From Glutamicibacter sp. PS (GTDB taxonomy: Bacteria > Actinomycetota > Actinomycetes > Actinomycetales > Micrococcaceae), in assembly GCA_031317595.1 (NCBI GenBank), contig JANCMB010000001.1:1110971-1174970 (forward strand): 64,000 bases of DNA, in the 5' to 3' direction. The notes under the pieces were generated by a model. It did not search any database and was not told the origin of the DNA. It saw only the letters and a list, made by a program, of their open reading frames with translations. Position numbers and translations under genes: made by a program. Numbering within the stretch: position 1 is the stretch's first letter; each line of letters opens with the position of its first letter. Below are positions 3,445 to 20,514 of the stretch, one piece after another.

Positions 3445-4683
3445 ATGGCGCGCAAAGTAGTGATCACCGGTCTCGGAGCCACCACCCCCATTGGCGGGGA
3501 CGTCCCAACCCTGTGGGAGAACGCCCTCAAGGGTGTATCCGGGGCAGCCACGCTGACCGATTCGTGGGTGGAGGAGTTCTCACTGCCGGTCACCTTTGCG
3601 GCGCGTGCGTCGACTCCTGCCAGCGAGACCCTCTCCCGCGTGGAGATGAAGCGCATGGATCCTTCCACGCAGTTCGCCGTGGTGGCGGCCCGCGAAGCGT
3701 GGAAGGACTCCGGTATCGAGGAGGTCGACCGCGATAAGTTGGCTGTGGCCTTCGCGACCGGTATCGGTGGCGTGTGGACCCTTCTTGACGCCTGGGACAC
3801 CCTGAAGGAAAAGGGCCCGCGTCGCGTGCTTCCGATGACCGTTCCGATGCTTATGCCAAACGGTCCGGCTGCGGCGGTCTCCCTCGACCTCGGTGCCGCC
3901 GGTGGCGCACACACCCCTGTCTCCGCGTGCGCCTCGGGCACCGAAGCGATGCACGTGGGACTGGATCTGATTCGTTCGGGTAAGGCCGATGTTGTCATGG
4001 TTGGTGGCGCCGAAGCGGCCATCCACCCGATGCCCATCGCAGCGTTCGCCTCCATGCAGGCGCTGTCCAAGCGCAATGACGACCCGGCCCGTGCCTCGCG
4101 CCCGTACGACGTTGACCGCGACGGCTTCGTCATGGGCGAAGGCGCCGGCGCACTGGTGCTGGAAGCCGAAGAGCACGCACTGGCCCGTGGCGCCCGGATC
4201 TATGCCGAGCTCGCCGGTTCCTCGGTCACTGCCGACGCCTACCACATCACCGCCCCGGACCCCGAGGGCCTGGGGGCAACCCGCGCGCTCAAGGCTGCCA
4301 TGTTCGACGGTCGAATCCAGCCGGAAGATGTCGTGCACGTCAACGCGCACGCAACCTCCACTCCGGTCGGCGATAAGCCCGAGTACACCGCCTTGCGCGC
4401 CGCTCTGGGCGACGCGCTCGATGATGTCTGGGTCTCGGCCACGAAGAGCCAGATGGGACACTTGCTCGGTGCCTCCGGTGCTGTCGAGTCGGTGCTCTCC
4501 ACCTTGGCCGTTTATCACCGCAAGACCCCGGTGACCATCAACCTCGACAACCAGGACCCGGAGATTCCGTTGAAGGTTGTCACCGGACAGCCAGCAGAAT
4601 TGCGTGAGGGTAGCATCGTTGCGTTGAACAATTCCTTCGGTTTCGGCGGTCACAACGCCGTGGTCGCGATCCGCAGCGTCTAA
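3445..4683 (+). CDS. fabF: 3-oxoacyl-ACP synthase II (KAS II)
   Basis: FabF condenses malonyl-ACP with acyl-ACP during fatty acid elongation. The thiolase-fold triad is visible: the nucleophile in SACASGTEAM, the first histidine in VNAHATSTPVGD and the second in MGHLLGASG; the glycine-rich end NNSFGFGGHN is also present. About 412 residues is normal. Three starts are adjacent (TTG 3439, ATG 3442, ATG 3445). ATG 3445 gives the best spacing to AGAGAG at 3432-3437 and the usual MARKVVITG beginning. It follows acpP by about 110 bases and is closed by a strong terminator, so it ends the FAS II operon. Confidence 0.95.
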   Translation: MARKVVITGLGATTPIGGDVPTLWENALKGVSGAATLTDSWVEEFSLPVTFAARASTPASETLSRVEMKRMDPSTQFAVVAAREAWKDSGIEEVDRDKLAVAFATGIGGVWTLLDAWDTLKEKGPRRVLPMTVPMLMPNGPAAAVSLDLGAAGGAHTPVSACASGTEAMHVGLDLIRSGKADVVMVGGAEAAIHPMPIAAFASMQALSKRNDDPARASRPYDVDRDGFVMGEGAGALVLEAEEHALARGARIYAELAGSSVTADAYHITAPDPEGLGATRALKAAMFDGRIQPEDVVHVNAHATSTPVGDKPEYTALRAALGDALDDVWVSATKSQMGHLLGASGAVESVLSTLAVYHRKTPVTINLDNQDPEIPLKVVTGQPAELREGSIVALNNSFGFGGHNAVVAIRSV

Positions 4684-4712
4684 GCGTACCGGCGGACACT
4701 TTAGTCACCTAC

Positions 4713-4749
4713 GGCGGGCCCCAGTAGCATCAAGCTACCGGGGCCCGCC
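4713..4749 (+). terminator. Terminator of the fab operon
   Basis: A 16-base stem (4713-4728 with 4734-4749, one mismatch) with a 5-base loop lies 30 bases after fabF. The stem is very GC-rich; only a weak T-rich stretch (ATTGGTGTATT) follows. Confidence 0.8.
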
Positions 4750-4781
4750 ATTGGTGTATTCCCCTTCACCACAGGCACTGG

Positions 4782-4795
4782 TATTCTCGGCCACA
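4782..4795 (+). promoter_or_regulatory. Possible -10 box for a leaderless transcript
   Basis: TATTCT at 4782-4787 ends 7 bases before the ATG at 4795, and no Shine-Dalgarno is visible. This spacing fits transcription starting at or next to the A of ATG, which is common in actinobacteria. No clear -35 element was found. Confidence 0.35.
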
Positions 4796-5370
4796 TGCGT
4801 ACCATTATTGCCACGGCTTTCATTTCCCTCGACGGCGTCATGCAGGCTCCGGGCGGTGAACCGGGCTACCGCAATTCGGGATGGACCATGTCCGCAACGG
4901 AATTCGATCCGGCGGCGTACGAGCTCAAGGGAAGCGAACAGGACGAAGCTGGCGCCATGCTGCTTGGCCGGAAAAGCTACCAGGCATTTAGCGGTGTCTG
5001 GCCGACGATGACCGAAGAGTTTCCGCGCTATAACGCCATGGACAAGTACGTGGTTTCTACTTCCCTGCAACCCGGGGATCTGGTCAATAACTGGGGTAAG
5101 ACCACGCTCCTGCGCTCGGCCGCTGATGTTGCGCGGGTGCGGGCAGAAGACGGTGCGCCACTGATCATTCATGGCTCGGGAACGCTCGTGCATTCGCTAC
5201 AGGAACATCAACTGATCGACCGTTATCACCTGTTGGTCTTCCCGGTGCTCCTTGGTGCCGGACTACGACTGTTCAGTGAGGCCGACCTGGACATGCAGAA
5301 ACTACAGCTGACCGCTCAGGCAACGTACCCGAACGGCATTCAGAAACAGGTCTTCGACGTGGTGCGCTAA
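4795..5370 (+). CDS. Dihydrofolate reductase family protein (RibD C-terminal-like)
   Basis: The 191-residue protein opens MRTIIATAFISLDGVMQAPG, the signature of the YyaP/YwjB-type DHFR-like group (RibD_C fold). Later segments LLGRKSYQAFSGVWP and VIHGSGTLVHSL-like (here IIHGSGTLVHSLQEH) are the nucleotide-binding GRKTY- and GSG-type motifs of that fold, and the end VLLGAGLRLFSE is typical. It is probably an NADPH-dependent reductase of unknown substrate; it is not the classical FolA. It is monocistronic between the fab terminator and DUF3145, with which it converges. Confidence 0.85.
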   Translation: MRTIIATAFISLDGVMQAPGGEPGYRNSGWTMSATEFDPAAYELKGSEQDEAGAMLLGRKSYQAFSGVWPTMTEEFPRYNAMDKYVVSTSLQPGDLVNNWGKTTLLRSAADVARVRAEDGAPLIIHGSGTLVHSLQEHQLIDRYHLLVFPVLLGAGLRLFSEADLDMQKLQLTAQATYPNGIQKQVFDVVR

Positions 5371-5392
5371 CTACCGCGAGCGTTGCGAGTGC

Positions 5393-5896
5393 TTAGACCA
5401 CCTGGTTGAGCCAGCGCACCGCGCTCTGCTCGCCGGCGTGCCGGAATGGTTCGAGTTCTTCATCCCACGCTTCACCGAGCGCGATGGACATCTCCTGAAA
5501 GAAGACGGCGGGGTTGCCATCGCCCTTCTCGTAGGCCCAACGGATCCGTTCTTCGTTGACCATAATATTTCCCGCCACATCGGTGGTGGCATGGAAAATA
5601 CCGAGCTCGGGAGTGAATGACCAACGGCTACCATCAACACCAGGGCTGGGCTCTTCGGTCACTTCGAAACGTAGGTGCTGCCATCCACGCATGGCTGAGG
5701 CTATGCGGGCTCCAGTACCGGGCTCCCCGGTCCACTGGTATTCGGCCCGCAGGAGTCCGGGCGCGGCAGATTGATCGGACCAGTCCAAATTCACGGCCCG
5801 ACCTAGCACTTCGCCGATCGCCCACTGCAGATGCGGGCACAGCGCTGCCGAGGCACTGTGAATGTAGATCACGCCTCGGGTCATCGATGCAGACAT
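5393..5896 (-). CDS. DUF3145 family protein
   Basis: The 167-residue protein begins MSASMTRGVIYIHSASAALC, continues PHLQWAIGEVLG and has the mid-segment WTGEPGTGARIASAMRGW. This is the pattern of DUF3145, a conserved actinobacterial family of unknown function that lies beside fabF in many genomes. The neighbourhood therefore fits. There is no signal peptide or membrane helix. No role is known; its linkage to FAS II suggests lipid-related work, which is inference. Confidence 0.85.
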   Translation of the reverse strand: MSASMTRGVIYIHSASAALCPHLQWAIGEVLGRAVNLDWSDQSAAPGLLRAEYQWTGEPGTGARIASAMRGWQHLRFEVTEEPSPGVDGSRWSFTPELGIFHATTDVAGNIMVNEERIRWAYEKGDGNPAVFFQEMSIALGEAWDEELEPFRHAGEQSAVRWLNQVV

Positions 5897-15075: not shown

Positions 15076-15783
15076 CTACGGTGTGTTGGGGGCAGGGACT
15101 TGGGCAAAGGTTTCGCTATGGGAATCAATGCCGCCCCAGCGGCTAATCGGCCACGAAATGACCGAGGCCTTGCCCTGGACACTATCGAGGTCAACGAAGC
15201 CCCCTTGGATATCCGTGTGGAAACGGGAATCGGCGCTCGCGGCACGGTGGTCACCCATGACCCAGATTTTCCCTTCCGGAACGGTGACCTTAAATTCCAT
15301 GTCGCTGGGTGCGTTGCCGGCGTACACGTAGGGCTCATCAATGACCGTACCGTTGATCGTCAACTTGCCGTCCGCGGAACAGCACTCGACGGTGTCCCCT
15401 GGCATTCCGATTATTCGTTTCACCAAATACTGTTCGTCGGCGGCCGGGAGCACGCCCACGAAGCTCAACGCGGATTCAACAAAGTTGGGATCTTCGTCCA
15501 AGGGCGGCAACCAATCGAGGTCATCCCGAAAAACCACCACGTCCCCGCGCTCGAGATCGAAGGGTCCGGGCACCATGAGGTTGGCGAAGATACGGTCGTT
15601 GATCTGCAGGGTATTTTCCATCGAACCCGAGGGAATGTAGTACGCCCGAAAGAAGAAAGTCTTGATGATGAGCGACAGTCCGATCGCAATGACAAGGATC
15701 AACAGGATCTCCCGGACCGAGCGCCAGATGCGATATGCGAGGCCGTGAGTTGCCTCAGGCGGGTTGACTGGTTCAGATGTCAC
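15076..15783 (-). CDS. lepB: Signal peptidase I
   Basis: Signal peptidase I cleaves Sec and Tat signal peptides outside the membrane. One N-terminal membrane helix (EILLILVIAIGLSLIIKTF) is followed by box B YYIPSGSMENTL with the catalytic Ser and by box D YLVKRIIGMPGDTV with the catalytic Lys; box E WVMGDHRAASADSR is intact. The start is GTG at 15783 with AAAGG upstream. A second, more divergent paralogue lies at 19494-20141; the two flank the protease and lipoprotein genes. Likely transcribed with rnhB and DUF2469. Confidence 0.95.
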   Translation of the reverse strand: MTSEPVNPPEATHGLAYRIWRSVREILLILVIAIGLSLIIKTFFFRAYYIPSGSMENTLQINDRIFANLMVPGPFDLERGDVVVFRDDLDWLPPLDEDPNFVESALSFVGVLPAADEQYLVKRIIGMPGDTVECCSADGKLTINGTVIDEPYVYAGNAPSDMEFKVTVPEGKIWVMGDHRAASADSRFHTDIQGGFVDLDSVQGKASVISWPISRWGGIDSHSETFAQVPAPNTP

Positions 15784-15870
15784 GATTCGAGTTTTACCTT
15801 TCGGGAGTTACTCTGTAACACTATCGCACCGCGGTGGGGATCTACCGATGGGCGCAATCATTAATGCACT

Positions 15871-15903
15871 GAGTCGGCCCATCCACGGAGGATGAGCCGA
15901 CTC
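15871..15903 (-). terminator. Hairpin after the propeptide-like lipoprotein gene
   Basis: GAGTCGGC (15871-15878) pairs with GCCGACTC (15896-15903), and inner bases CATCC/GGATG extend the stem. It lies 22 bases beyond the minus-strand lipoprotein stop. Confidence 0.65.
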
Positions 15904-15925
15904 GATGCTAAAGGTTTTCGTTCTC

Positions 15926-16501
15926 TTATGGTTTGGTCATCATCGCCGGTGAGGCTGGTCCGGCACTCTTCTTCAGTGTTACCGGAATATCCCCGATCGG
16001 TTTCTGCTCATTGAATAGCTTTTCGATGCTCTCGAACTGGCCAACGTCGACCATTAGGGTCAAGCCACCGTCTTCCGGATTCATGTAGTAGCCATGGATT
16101 GCGGTTTTCAGCGGGCCATCGAGGGTACCCTGCCATTCCATTACCTTTGTTATCGCCTCGTTGAGGTCGGCGGCGGAGTAGTCCACCACATGAGCTACCG
16201 CACCGGCGGCTTCGATCTCGGAAACCTTGGATTCGTCGGTTGTGGAGACATGCAGCTTTCCGTCACTGATCCAGGTCTGACCCAAGCTGGTTCCCAAAGA
16301 CTCGGTCAACCGCTCGGAGAGGTCCAACAGTTTTTCTTGATCCATCGATGACTCCTGCTGCGAGGAAGAGGCCGTTGGCTCGGGTTCTGAACTGTTTGGG
16401 GTTCCAGACCCATTGCCACAACCGCTCAAAAACAGCGCGGAGGCTACGGTGACTGCGGCAAGTCCGACGCCACTGAAGTGTTTGGATGTCTTGATGTTCA
16501 T
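15926..16501 (-). CDS. Lipoprotein resembling a free-standing alpha-lytic/streptogrisin protease propeptide
   Basis: The 191-residue protein has a lipoprotein signal (start MNIKTSKHFSG, lipobox LSGC at about residue 28) and a Ser/Glu-rich linker. From residue ~60 on, the segments SLGQTWISDGKLHVSTTD, KVSEIEAAGAVAHVVDYS, ADLNEAITKVMEW and AIHGYYMNPEDGGLTLMVDV follow the order and spacing of the Pro_Al_protease propeptide repeat (G-x-W-x-x-x-GKL-V--TD, A-GA-x-x-VV-YS, L--A---L, V-GWYVD----LVV-V) that folds streptogrisin and alpha-lytic protease. There is no protease domain. It is next to a large secreted S1 protease on the same strand, with a terminator between them. A membrane-tethered foldase or inhibitor is the natural inference; the propeptide match is by eye. 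Confidence 0.7.
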   Translation of the reverse strand: MNIKTSKHFSGVGLAAVTVASALFLSGCGNGSGTPNSSEPEPTASSSQQESSMDQEKLLDLSERLTESLGTSLGQTWISDGKLHVSTTDESKVSEIEAAGAVAHVVDYSAADLNEAITKVMEWQGTLDGPLKTAIHGYYMNPEDGGLTLMVDVGQFESIEKLFNEQKPIGDIPVTLKKSAGPASPAMMTKP

Positions 16502-16588
16502 AGATACACCTACCCAATAGAAGCTATGGCTTCCAAAATTAGTCGATATCCCAGCATAGAAGCAGAGAGTTTCATGTGTGATTCAAGT

Positions 16589-16627
16589 GATAATGCCCCC
16601 GTCACGAATGGTGACGGGGGCATTATC
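16589..16627 (-). terminator. Terminator of the S1 protease gene
   Basis: A perfect 17-bp stem (16589-16605 with 16611-16627) and a 5-base loop lie just beyond the minus-strand stop of the protease gene at 16666. Confidence 0.85.
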
Positions 16628-16665
16628 TACCTAGTCGGTCAGGGACACGCTAGGTTCGTTCCGGA

Positions 16666-19008
16666 CTAGCCGTGGCGACGGGTGCCGCGGCGAAGCATCA
16701 GGAAGAGTGCACCGATCAGTGCTAGTGCGCCACCGGCAGCAACCAGCGGAGCGGCGCTCGAACCGGTTTCAGCCAAAGGATCGTCCTTCTTAGGCTGTTC
16801 CTTCTTCGGTGCCTCGGACTTGCTTGGCTGCTCCGACTTGGTCGGCTCCTCGGTCGGAGTCGGCTTTTCGGACTCGGTCGGGGTTGCAGTAGGCTCGTCC
16901 GACTTGCTTGGCTCCTCGGTCGGCTCCTCAGACTCGGTCGGAGTTGCGGTCGGCTCTTCAGTCGGAGTCGGGGTAGCAGTCGGCTCCTCAGTCGGAGTCG
17001 GGGTAGCAGTCGGCTCCTCAGTCGGAGTCGGGGTAGCAGTCGGCTCCTCAGTCGGAGTCGGGGTAGCAGTCGGCTCCTCAGTCGGAGTCGGGGTAGCAGT
17101 CGGCTCCTCAGTCGGAGTCGGGGTAGCAGTCGGCTCCTCAGTCGGAGTCGGGGTAGCAGTCGGCTCCTCGGTCGGAGTCGGGGTAGCAGTCGGCTCCTCA
17201 GTCGGAGTCGGGGTAGCAGTCGGCTCCTCGGTCGGAGTCGGGGTCGGAGTTGGCTCAGGTGCGGCCACGATAACCGATCCCTGCGTGTTAGCCGAGACGT
17301 TGTAACCGTTCTTTGCCTTCAGAGTGAAGGAGAATTCGCCTTCGGTCTCTGGGGCATTGAAGGTAAAGGTGCCGTTGGATCCCACCTGGACGGTGGCAAT
17401 GACCTCGCCATTGACGATGACCTGAACGCTGGTGCCAGCAGCAGCGCCTTCGACCTTACCGGTGATGGTTGCGCCTGGCTCAACGGTTGCACCGTTCTCC
17501 GGGGTAACGACGACCGGAGCGTTCACGAAGAACTTCACCTGGTAGTTTTCGCCGGTGGCCGAGTTCAGGACGGACATGCCCTCCTGAAGGTCGGTGTACA
17601 TGGCCAAGTCGTCGGTGGTGTTTTCTACGGCGTCGTCGCCGGCGTGAGTCGCCGAGTTGATGCCAACAGCCTTGGTACCGATGAGCGCGGCGCCGCCCGA
17701 GTCGCCCTGGTCCAGAACGGTCTGGCCCGGGTTGGTGGAAGCGAAGCCGTTCACGACGCGGATGTCATTCTTGTAACCGCCAACGGTGAAGAGGCCTTCG
17801 TAGATGACCTCGCCACAGCTCCAGCCGGTGGTACGACCCACCGAGCATACCTCGGAGCCGATGACGGCCTTGGAAACACCGGTGACATTGACGGTCTCGT
17901 CGCGCTCGTCCTTGCCCTCGGCCCACTTGGAAACACCTGGCTGCATGTTCAGGTCGGCGTTGGTCTTGTCAATGGCCGAGATATCGGTTCCTGCGGCATC
18001 AACGATGTCTTGTTCGGTGGTGTTCTCATCCGGCACAACACCAGCGTGGTTCGGTCCACCAAACTGGGAGAAGGTGAACTGTCCCATTGGCACGCCGAGC
18101 GCGGTGTTCGGATCATCCGGCATATCCTGCTCGACCAAGGACACGAACTTGAAGGCGTCGTCCTGGGTGCAGTGACCGGCGGAGATCGCGGCATCCTTGC
18201 CATCGGTGGTCCAGCCACTGAAACCGAAGGAGCAGAGACCCTCGGCGGTGTTCTGAGTGGTTCCGGCACCGTAGCCCATACCACCAAAAACATCGTTGGC
18301 AGCAGCTGGCTTAGCGTGGACCTTGTCCTTGCCCTTACCATCAACTACGGCCTTGGTCTCGTTAAGTTCGACGTTCGGGGCTTGGCTAGCGAACTGCTCA
18401 AGCGTCAGTCCACCGCTTACCGAAGCGGTCGCAGCGGTCTTCTTCGACTTTTCGATCTGAGCCGGGCCGGCCGCGATGATCGTGAACTGTCCGGGAGTAC
18501 CGTCGCTGACCACAGCGGTCAGGCGGCTCAATTCCTTCGGAGCGACGTTCTCGGCCAACTCCTTGTAGACCTCGCCTACGGTCGAGACCTTGCCGACCTT
18601 GGCGACAAGCTTGATCGCCTTCGGGGCGGCGCTGGCGGCGACTACCTTAGCGGCGGCCTTCTGGTCCTTGGTGGCGACCTCGATGGTGGCCTTGCCATCC
18701 TTGACCGAGGCGCTGGCCTTGATGCCTTCTTCGGCTAGCTTCTGCTTGGCGTCCGAGACGGCGTTGCTGACCTTCGACTCTTCTAGATACTGATCTAGGT
18801 CCTTGCCGAGGTCTTCCTTGACTGCTTCTTTGAGACCACGAGTGTCCACACCGGAGTCGGTCGTGGTGGCCGGCGTCTGGGCGGCCGGCGATTCGATCGC
18901 CTTATCAGCCGCGACGGCAGGAGCGATGAAGCTACCGCCGACCACCAGTGCGGTGGCCGCGGCAGCAACGACGCCGCGCTGCGCGTTCTTCTTTTGTGGA
19001 TGTGGCAT
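16666..19008 (-). CDS. Cell-wall-anchored S1 family serine protease with PTE-rich stalk
   Basis: The 780-residue precursor has a signal peptide (to APAVA, ~residue 33), an alpha-lytic-type propeptide (~40-230), an S1 protease domain (~230-480) with AISAGHCTQ (His ~279), a probable Asp in TDISAID (~342) and DQGDSGGAAL (Ser ~437), and paired cysteines (SVGRTTGWSCG). A bacterial Ig-like domain follows (~500-590, beginning PVVVTPENGATVEPG), then a 10-residue Pro/Thr/Glu repeat stalk, a Lys/Glu-rich part and the sorting signal LAETG, hydrophobic helix and RRGTRRHG tail. The LAETG form suits an actinobacterial class E sortase; none is in this window. ATG at 19008 has GGGAGAAG upstream. The substrate is unknown. 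Confidence 0.88.
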   Translation of the reverse strand: MPHPQKKNAQRGVVAAAATALVVGGSFIAPAVAADKAIESPAAQTPATTTDSGVDTRGLKEAVKEDLGKDLDQYLEESKVSNAVSDAKQKLAEEGIKASASVKDGKATIEVATKDQKAAAKVVAASAAPKAIKLVAKVGKVSTVGEVYKELAENVAPKELSRLTAVVSDGTPGQFTIIAAGPAQIEKSKKTAATASVSGGLTLEQFASQAPNVELNETKAVVDGKGKDKVHAKPAAANDVFGGMGYGAGTTQNTAEGLCSFGFSGWTTDGKDAAISAGHCTQDDAFKFVSLVEQDMPDDPNTALGVPMGQFTFSQFGGPNHAGVVPDENTTEQDIVDAAGTDISAIDKTNADLNMQPGVSKWAEGKDERDETVNVTGVSKAVIGSEVCSVGRTTGWSCGEVIYEGLFTVGGYKNDIRVVNGFASTNPGQTVLDQGDSGGAALIGTKAVGINSATHAGDDAVENTTDDLAMYTDLQEGMSVLNSATGENYQVKFFVNAPVVVTPENGATVEPGATITGKVEGAAAGTSVQVIVNGEVIATVQVGSNGTFTFNAPETEGEFSFTLKAKNGYNVSANTQGSVIVAAPEPTPTPTPTEEPTATPTPTEEPTATPTPTEEPTATPTPTEEPTATPTPTEEPTATPTPTEEPTATPTPTEEPTATPTPTEEPTATPTPTEEPTATPTPTEEPTATPTESEEPTEEPSKSDEPTATPTESEKPTPTEEPTKSEQPSKSEAPKKEQPKKDDPLAETGSSAAPLVAAGGALALIGALFLMLRRGTRRHG
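16951..17250. repeat. 30-bp tandem repeat, about ten units
   Basis: Units of 30 bases start at 16951, 16981, 17011 and so on to 17221; eight internal units are identical or differ by one base, the first and last have drifted. They encode a decapeptide of Pro, Thr, Glu and Ala in the protease stalk. The near-identity at DNA level means copy number can change easily by slippage or recombination, which would alter the distance of the protease from the wall. Confidence 0.95.
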
Positions 19009-19493
19009 TAATGCTTCTCCCAAGTTGTTTGGTGCGAGTGCGAAACGGGAGTGTGCATCTCACCGGTCTGCGCACAGTACTGTTACCAAATCGAAACAAT
19101 ATCTGCTTGAGATTAGCCAATTCAAGCCGTCCAAGGGGGTAGAACTACCCATCGGACCGGTTTTCTGAGTGTTTGCTGGACGCGTGAAGCCATGTTTGCC
19201 GCCGTTACGCTCAACGGGATTCCGGAGTTATCTATCGGCGAACGCGAAAACATGCCTAATCAGCGATGTGTGTGTTGCGCTACAGCCGGAGAAGTCAGAG
19301 TTACGGGCAAAAACTTCTATCTTCAAGCTTTACTGCTGAGCAAGACGCCTAGAAAGCTCGGAGATTTTTCAAAATTTTTCTCAGGGTTCGCGTGTTACGC
19401 GGCCAAATCCACGACTCAGTCCACTCAAAAGTCGGCCTGAACAAGTCCTCATTACCGAGAAGCTCCTCCGGAACTGTAGACTCCGGCTACAAC
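19009..19493. other. Intergenic region upstream of the protease
   Basis: 485 bases between the protease start and the end of the second signal peptidase gene. It is less GC-rich than its neighbours, with A/T runs around 19365-19385. The one longer frame here (19192-19440, plus strand) has no ribosome site and no coding-like composition. It should hold the protease promoter; I could not assign boxes confidently. Confidence 0.5.
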
Positions 19494-20141
19494 TTAGCGC
19501 AAGGGTTTGCTATCAGATAACGGCCAAATAACTTTCGTCGCCTTGCCCAAGATGCGCTCGACCGGGATCATGCCACCGCCACTGGAACCGAGCAATGACC
19601 GCGAGTCCTCGGAACGTGCACGGTGATCCCCCATGACCCATACGCGGCCCTCTGGGACTTTCACCGTAAAGGGTTGCTCGCTTGGTGCGTTACCCGGATA
19701 TAGATAGGGTTCGTCAATGGACTGGCCGTTGATTTGCACTCGCCCATCCGGGCCGCAGCAAGAGACAGTGTCTCCGGCGACGCCGATAACCCGCTTGACA
19801 TAGGTGCTGTCCCCGCCAGTTAGCCGCAACGTACGGCCCATAAGTTGCAGGAAGTCATCCCGTTGATATGGATCGAACGATCCTCGGCCGTCTAAAACGA
19901 TCACATCCCCGCGCTCAACGGCGGTCTCATGGTATGCGGTACGGTCAACGCCGATGCTCTGTCCGGGGTTGATGGTCGGTTGCATCGAGACCGATTCGAT
20001 ACGAAAGACGTCGAAGACGGTATTACGCACGATTAGCGTCGCAATGAGGGCGAGGATTATAGCGAGAACGGCGAAGCGCCAGACCCAGGTAAGGGTCCGG
20101 CGCTTCGTTGTTGCTCGCTCTAGGCGGGCACTCCGATTCAT
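19494..20141 (-). CDS. lepB: Second signal peptidase I
   Basis: A 215-residue paralogue of the signal peptidase at 15076. One membrane helix (TLTWVWRFAVLAIILALIA) is followed by IESVSMQPTINPGQ with the catalytic Ser, YVKRVIGVAGDTVSC with the Lys, and WVMGDHRARSEDSRS. The start ATG at 20141 lies 13 bases after the rplS stop; no good ribosome site is visible, so translation may depend on coupling to rplS. In mycobacteria a single lepB follows rplS. Here the two copies are separated by the protease and lipoprotein genes, which suggests duplication or insertion. Confidence 0.92.
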   Translation of the reverse strand: MNRSARLERATTKRRTLTWVWRFAVLAIILALIATLIVRNTVFDVFRIESVSMQPTINPGQSIGVDRTAYHETAVERGDVIVLDGRGSFDPYQRDDFLQLMGRTLRLTGGDSTYVKRVIGVAGDTVSCCGPDGRVQINGQSIDEPYLYPGNAPSEQPFTVKVPEGRVWVMGDHRARSEDSRSLLGSSGGGMIPVERILGKATKVIWPLSDSKPLR

Positions 20142-20154
20142 TGAAAGAGTCGGA

Positions 20155-20514
20155 TTACTTCTTGCCACCGAAGTCGCGCTTCTCGCGGATGCGAGCAGCC
20201 TTACCGTGACGATCGCGCATGTAGTACAGCTTGGCACGACGCACGTCACCGCGGGAGACAACCTCGATCTTTTCGATGATCGGGGAGTGTACCGGGAAGG
20301 TACGCTCAACGCCGACACCGAAGGAGACCTTGCGAACGGTGAAGGTCTCACCAATGCCGCGGCCCTGACGGCCGAGCACGTAACCCTGGAAGACCTGAAC
20401 GCGGGAGTTTTTACCTTCGATGATGTTGACGTGCACCTTCAGGGTGTCGCCCGGACCGAAAGCAGGAACGTCGGAACGCAGCGAAGCTGCATCGACAGAG
20501 TCAAGAATATGCAT
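20155..20514 (-). CDS. rplS: 50S ribosomal protein L19
   Basis: L19 lies at the 30S-50S interface. The 119-residue protein starts [20 protein letters not shown], has the [16 protein letters not shown]-type motif (here [20 protein letters not shown]), [20 protein letters not shown] and the closing [21 protein letters not shown] follows AAGGAGATGC. The 248-base gap upstream holds its promoter and separates it from trmD. Confidence 0.98.

Follow-up and report, generated by a model that had tools for sequence, protein, structure and literature searches.

A free-standing lipoprotein homologous to alpha-lytic/streptogrisin pro-regions beside S1 protease genes in some Micrococcaceae

Results

The window analysed here, a stretch of 64,000 nucleotides from Glutamicibacter sp. 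PS, carries a gene for a lipoprotein whose mature part is, as judged by homology, a pro-region of the alpha-lytic/streptogrisin type without a protease, and the gene is paired with that of an S1 protease. The homology, the predicted fold, the lipobox and the conserved pairing were established by computation. The lipoprotein gene and its parts are as follows.

15926..16501, minus strand: lipoprotein gene, free-standing alpha-lytic-type pro-region (open reading frame, homologues, canonical-propeptide profile, Foldseek)
16418..16501, minus strand: lipoprotein signal peptide with lipobox FLSGC (sequence; lipobox-type cysteine in 40 homologous loci)
16418-16420, minus strand: lipid cysteine Cys28 (sequence)
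16340..16417, minus strand: Ser/Thr/Pro-rich tether from the lipid cysteine to the folded domain, probably disordered (low pLDDT)
15965..16339, minus strand: folded pro-region of two subdomains, each helix-strand-strand-helix-strand (pLDDT block means 88-97 over model residues 31-150; Foldseek matches 2PRO/3PRO/4PRO)
15929..15964, minus strand: C-terminal tail GPASPAMMTKP, like the protease pro/mature junction in many related loci (by eye)

The minus-strand open reading frame has an ATG start, encodes 191 residues and occupies exactly the span that the first-pass annotation had assigned to a lipoprotein, and the four propeptide motifs quoted there are all present in the translation in the order that it gave. 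The window protein has the signal peptide, lipobox and cysteine of a bacterial lipoprotein; a low-complexity tether precedes a folded portion of about 125 residues. The lipobox-type cysteine was found in 40 of the 40 loci read (one, L070, was missed by the search pattern and recognised by eye). Models of LptM, LppK and other lipoproteins in Pfam and NCBIfam gave weak matches at the signal-peptide end only, far below their cut-offs. Domain searches found no protease domain in the 191-residue frame, in agreement with the earlier reading, and the pro-region is therefore not placed in cis to a protease. Homologues are present in 18/18 genomes of the genus, the other 17 having 43-52% identity to the window protein; these genus-wide homologues and the lipobox-type cysteines of the 40 loci speak against a chance reading frame.

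The AlphaFold2 model of the lipoprotein, built from 15 sequences, had a mean pLDDT of 81.4 and showed an identical order of helices and strands in its two subdomains. Foldseek against the PDB placed chains of 4pro, 3pro and 2pro, all alpha-lytic pro-regions, at ranks 1-7 (E 1.9e-6 to 8.0e-5; TM 0.48-0.57 when normalised to the query length and 0.50-0.66 when normalised to that of the target), and the eighth match was unrelated (E 3.4e-3). The lipoprotein is thus predicted to have the pro-region fold over both subdomains.

The match to Pfam PF02983 (Pro_Al_protease) that the earlier assignment implied was not obtained. The window protein was unmatched, 0 of 17 alignment members (the window protein included) matched at E up to 10, and no match above the gathering cut-off was found anywhere in the window's genome. 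In 10/10 canonical propeptides the PF02983 match covered the C-terminal subdomain only, from the helix beginning [HR]-[SNTP], and the strongest conservation of the lipoproteins lies in the N-terminal subdomain (LG..Y...WI..LHV..T..AGA); the model misses the lipoprotein because it covers the subdomain in which the lipoprotein is not best conserved. The W-x-V-D...N-x-V-V-V signature, which falls in the PF02983 region of canonical propeptides, is lost from the C-terminal subdomain of the lipoprotein.

The homology was recovered by profiles of whole propeptides. A canonical profile was prepared from 23 propeptides from families elsewhere in the class, collected via PF02983 with the start of the mature protease attached (30 loci minus 6 short ones and 1 in the wrong frame). 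It matched 41/41 lipoproteins and 0/246 reversed and shuffled decoys; the lowest E value, 1.9e-12, belonged to the window protein and the highest was 3.3e-6 (search space 25000). The reverse search, at E up to 10, listed 23/23 canonical sequences and 0/138 decoys; 20 of the canonical sequences passed the inclusion threshold. Alignment of the lipoproteins to the canonical propeptides by hhalign gave a probability of 98.6 (E 5.7e-15), which was 98.3 over 117 aligned columns when the mature protease part was trimmed and 98.1 over 91 columns with another alignment pair. As a control on whole genomes, 13 selected genomes, 9 with the lipoprotein and 4 without, were scanned with a profile built from ten canonical propeptides. 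In the window's genome (G000) the lipoprotein gene was the sole match at E up to 10 (3.6e-10), and the lipoprotein was the best match in all nine carriers (E 2.3e-10 to 2.8e-4); three of the genomes without it gave no match and the fourth, G197, gave one at E 0.08. Sequence homology places the lipoprotein in the alpha-lytic/streptogrisin pro-region superfamily. The first-pass reading thus stands in part: it holds for a free-standing, lipoprotein-type relative of the pro-region beside S1 proteases. Of its own refuting conditions, the absence of a PF02983 match applied, with the coverage of that model as the explanation, whereas the predicted fold and the neighbourhood bore the reading out.

The features of the neighbouring protease gene are listed below.

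16666..19008, minus strand: S1 (alpha-lytic-like) protease precursor (motifs, PDB sequence matches)
18298..18837, minus strand: the protease's own divergent pro-region, beginning with the GLKEAVKEDLG helix, borders approximate (hhalign; moderate-confidence model)
18172-18174, minus strand: catalytic His (AGHC motif)
17983-17985, minus strand: likely catalytic Asp (chosen from conservation and place)
17698-17700, minus strand: catalytic Ser (GDSGG motif)
16669..16776, minus strand: LAETG-type sorting signal, hydrophobic stretch and basic tail (sequence; NCBIfam TIGR01167)

The neighbour is assigned to the S1 proteases because of its AGHC and GDSGG motifs, its conserved Asp and its phmmer matches to solved alpha-lytic-type proteases (best E 1.8e-5), which bears out the earlier description of an adjacent same-strand S1 protease with its own propeptide, a divergent one. 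H246, D309 and S404 are invariant in a 12-row alignment; none of the Pfam trypsin models matched. The gene starts with ATG, and the frame stays open back to an in-frame TTG at 19023. The product consists of a signal-like N-terminus, the divergent pro-region, the catalytic domain and, towards the C-terminus, a region that matches Ig-type domains weakly, followed by PT-rich repeats and the LAETG-type sorting signal. TIGR01167 scored 15.3 bits, just short of its cut-off of 15.9, and an L[APS]xTG motif lies near the C-terminus of 41/41 sampled proteases with a lipoprotein neighbour; the protease is a probable candidate for sorting to the wall. Its stalk, with PTPTEEPTAT-type repeats, is encoded by a near-perfect 30-base tandem array at about 16960-17265 on the minus strand (by eye); the repeats of relatives are of other kinds, among them PTEPTEPTE and SSDKPE.

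The protease's own pro-region was aligned to canonical propeptides by hhalign with a probability of 88.8 over 55 columns (31/40 precursors), and it carries low-complexity inserts in several genera. The model of the precursor had a pLDDT of 56, with block means of 64-82 over the stretch 31-150, where the elements follow one another in a similar order. A PDB search with this low-confidence model returned for the most part unrelated chains, among them adhesins and domains of the Ig-like or fibronectin-like type, and nothing firm on the own pro-region. Direct homology between the own pro-region and the lipoprotein was set aside as weak only (hhalign probability 1.5 to 37).

Two strong hairpins were found around the lipoprotein gene by folding energy against shuffled sequences, and the gene is thus bracketed on either side.

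16589..16627, minus strand: hairpin between the protease and lipoprotein genes, terminator-like, without a long U run (-36.9 kcal/mol for 61 nt, z -7.4, 0/200 shuffles)
15871..15903, minus strand: hairpin just 3' of the lipoprotein gene (-34.7 kcal/mol for 76 nt, z -5.6, 0/200 shuffles)

A consensus promoter/terminator scan of 15780-16800 reported no feature, these hairpins notwithstanding. In 27/39 protease-lipoprotein gaps there is a 14-bp stem with no more than one mismatch, a raw count without a shuffled control. Because of the intergenic hairpin and these stems, simple co-transcription of the two genes is doubtful, and each gene perhaps has its own transcript.

The distribution was studied in 295 Micrococcaceae genomes, at E up to 0.01 for the lipoprotein profile and up to 1e-10 for the protease. 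The lipoprotein profile matched 68 genomes. Four were set aside: G126 (checked) and G110 had protease-sized frames, and the short partial matches of G112 (a 108-residue frame) and G262 (28 columns) were rejected as unconvincing. The remaining 64 come from six genera. The protease is present in 62 of them: in 60 the two genes share a contig and lie within 3 kb of each other, and in two they are on separate contigs; the recurrence of orphan copies beside S1 proteases in the family, raised in the first-pass annotation, is thereby confirmed. The two lipoprotein genomes without the protease are G233, an 88% complete genome with the lipoprotein gene near a contig end, and G190. The protease occurs alone in 26 of the 88 genomes that have it, and 205 genomes have neither gene (Fisher p for co-occurrence 5e-40, uncorrected for kinship). 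Forty loci were read over as much as 15 kb: in 39 the protease gene immediately precedes the lipoprotein gene on the same strand, and the fortieth begins at a contig end. In G190 (locus L176) a 105-residue lipoprotein remnant at 3606-3920 (minus strand) stands beside a 484-residue protease-like frame at 3942-5393 (minus strand), which starts like the protease precursors and has no S1 motif pair, as if both genes had decayed together.

In this genus and in genus g23 the pair appears to be lodged between two genes for signal peptidase I.

15076-15783 and 19494-20354, minus strand: two signal peptidase I (lepB-like) genes around the pair

The lepB neighbours were not found in the 15 loci from the other four genera, where the pair is kept. 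Wider samples comprised 396 genomes of the order and 394 of the class, partly overlapping the family sample. Among the matches listed, those outside Micrococcaceae were frames of at least 349 residues; 57 order- and class-wide frames were re-read, of which 53 had both S1 motifs, 3 were cut by the locus edge and 1 was the G112 fragment. Because matches elsewhere lie in long frames, mostly with S1 motifs, the detached pro-region appears, in the samples covered and at the sensitivity used, to be restricted to some Micrococcaceae.

A tree of 57 protease domains requires 6 changes of the label 'has lipoprotein', at least 4 of them being forced by well-supported branches. The sorting-type motif was present in all 41 sampled proteases with the lipoprotein versus 13/16 without; the three lacking it (L159, L160 and L161) all come from genus g23 and have no lipoprotein neighbour. 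The 16 proteases read that are without a lipoprotein neighbour have an own pro-region of like kind (by eye), shortened in L159 and L161, in which its N-terminal part is absent. Against canonical propeptides, own pro-regions scored a median of 12.9 bits with the lipoprotein (40) versus 3.85 without (16; p 0.095), which is the wrong direction for complementation because the own pro-region scores no worse when the lipoprotein is present. Against the lipoprotein profile the scores were near zero (0.75 with versus -0.65 without, p 0.011). Complementation between the parts of a split propeptide was therefore found unsupported, the lipoprotein-free proteases that were read having a like pro-region by eye and those with the lipoprotein showing no excess decay.

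Co-evolution of lipoprotein and protease by distance correlation was likewise discarded, as there was no excess over controls. The raw correlation of the lipoprotein with the protease was 0.81 versus 0.92-0.95 with four neighbouring genes (25 rows), the partial correlation 0.25 versus 0.30 and 0.20 with one and the other lepB gene (25 rows), and the within-genus partial correlation 0.27 versus 0.37 and 0.33 for the lepB controls. A G-[PILM] motif is present in the C-terminal tail of 40/40 lipoproteins. The pattern search recovered 35 of 40 pro/mature junctions of the protease, and in 20 of these the GPA motif that precedes the mature enzyme looks, by eye, like the tail, a likeness that was not significant by hhalign (probability 1.5).

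Discussion

Alpha-lytic protease is a textbook example of a protein whose folding is driven by its pro-region, and action of this pro-region in trans is known from engineered constructs. The PrtM/PrsA lipoproteins beside wall-anchored proteases of lactic acid bacteria are needed for protease maturation and are chaperones of the prolyl isomerase type, unlike a pro-region. The lipase foldase Lif/LipH is not known to be related in fold to the alpha-lytic pro-region. According to the available text of PMC2829044, the alpha-lytic pro-region catalyses folding of its protease and pairs with a protease hairpin in a five-stranded sheet, the junction lying across the active site. Folding and inhibition of the protease are both ascribed to it in the accessible part of a 2008 survey of prokaryotic serine proteases, where the prodomain comes up solely as a component of trypsin homologues (PMC2605481).

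The lipoprotein is like the alpha-lytic pro-region (2PRO, 3PRO, 4PRO) and the streptogrisin propeptides in collinear sequence and in the predicted fold of both subdomains; it differs in being a separate gene with a lipobox, no protease in cis, a diverged C-terminal subdomain and no PF02983 match. The stand-alone subtilisin propeptide-like inhibitors (MEROPS I9), as described in the available part of the report on SUB1-ProM, a potent inhibitor, are likewise free-standing genes near protease genes, whereas their proteases belong to family S8, their propeptide fold is another one and the examples named there are eukaryotic, with a lipid anchor unmentioned in that part (PMC6993865). Lif/LipH, in the accessible text of PMC13381987, is likewise a membrane-anchored, linker-borne partner of an exported hydrolase; its client is a lipase, however, and its place the Gram-negative periplasm. 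No earlier report of a free-standing alpha-lytic/streptogrisin propeptide, or of a natural conserved trans version, was found among the papers listed by searches of open-licence PubMed Central.

The function of the lipoprotein, including binding, inhibition, foldase action and the route of export and anchoring, is what we infer from here on. The explanation we prefer, by a little more than even chance, is that a membrane-tethered pro-region works in trans on the S1 protease next to it, itself probably sorted to the wall, and inhibits it, aids its folding or does both. The neighbour is the more likely partner than other exported proteases, because it is the sole match to the protease family profile in the window's genome at E up to 0.01. 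In favour of the explanation are this single match, the canonical-profile and hhalign results, the predicted fold, the conserved pairing and the sorting-type motif of all 41 sampled partners; against it count the 26 genomes with the protease alone, the protease's retained pro-region with its scores in the wrong direction for complementation, distances no more closely tied to the protease than to lepB, the hairpin between the genes and the divergence of the C-terminal subdomain. The lipoprotein would sit on the outer face of the membrane, held by its flexible tether. The protease would cross the membrane unfolded, fold with the aid of its own divergent pro-region and be handed over to the cell wall by sortase. 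Binding would follow the alpha-lytic pro-region, with the last subdomain on the C-terminal barrel and the tail in the active site; the bound protease would be kept inactive near the membrane, and its folding perhaps also assisted. A lipid-tethered copy would act at the site where the protease emerges from the membrane. A bolder form, which we hold as tentative and rather doubtful, is a natural two-protein S1 zymogen, in which the canonical pro-region would have been split off as a lipoprotein and would fold and inhibit the wall-anchored protease from outside in repeated rounds, setting where at the envelope it becomes active.

Two narrower forms of the preferred explanation, whose probabilities overlap, divide its two functions between them. 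A pure inhibitor or guard would never aid folding and would block protease misplaced near the membrane, a role with which the lipid anchor is compatible. It has a precedent in the stand-alone propeptide-like inhibitors known for subtilases from the available part of PMC6993865, and the G-[PILM] tail, with its resemblance to the GPA motif at the junctions, would suit it; the tail extends beyond the motif, though, and could simply be cut, and the hhalign comparison lends the likeness no significance. We regard this form as quite possible, if short of an even chance. A dedicated foldase would instead have taken over the canonical pro-region function, the protease's own pro-region being a remnant and folding failing without the lipoprotein, as with a Lif-like steric chaperone of the membrane. 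The lipoprotein's rank as best canonical-profile match in all nine carriers, with the adjacent protease unlisted at E up to 10, and the divergence and low-complexity inserts of the protease's pro-region speak for it. An obligate foldase is argued against by the 26 genomes that have the protease alone, by the divergent pro-region that the protease retains, which in the 16 lipoprotein-free proteases read is of like kind by eye (two of them shortened), and by own pro-regions that score no worse alongside the lipoprotein. The foldase is accordingly judged unlikely, and the inhibitor or guard is favoured over it by roughly two to one.

A further reading is that of a repurposed domain, an old pro-region fold with another task at the membrane, for example as protease substrate or sensor, for which the linkage would have been kept. 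The disappearance of the W-x-V-D...N-x-V-V-V signature from the C-terminal subdomain is consistent with such a change of use. The signature of the N-terminal subdomain and the linkage to the protease are, however, kept across six genera, and the prediction shows the fold retained as a whole; this reading is considered improbable.

Conclusion

A detached, lipoprotein-type pro-region beside a protease that seems destined for the cell wall suggests that, in these soil bacteria related to Arthrobacter, the cell controls its protein-cutting enzyme with a second, detached copy of the pro-region, an action in trans that is a little better than evenly likely. If this is true, the pair would be a natural system for separating the foldase role of a pro-region from its inhibitor role, and it would show one way in which a Gram-positive cell may protect its membrane from a protease of its own wall.
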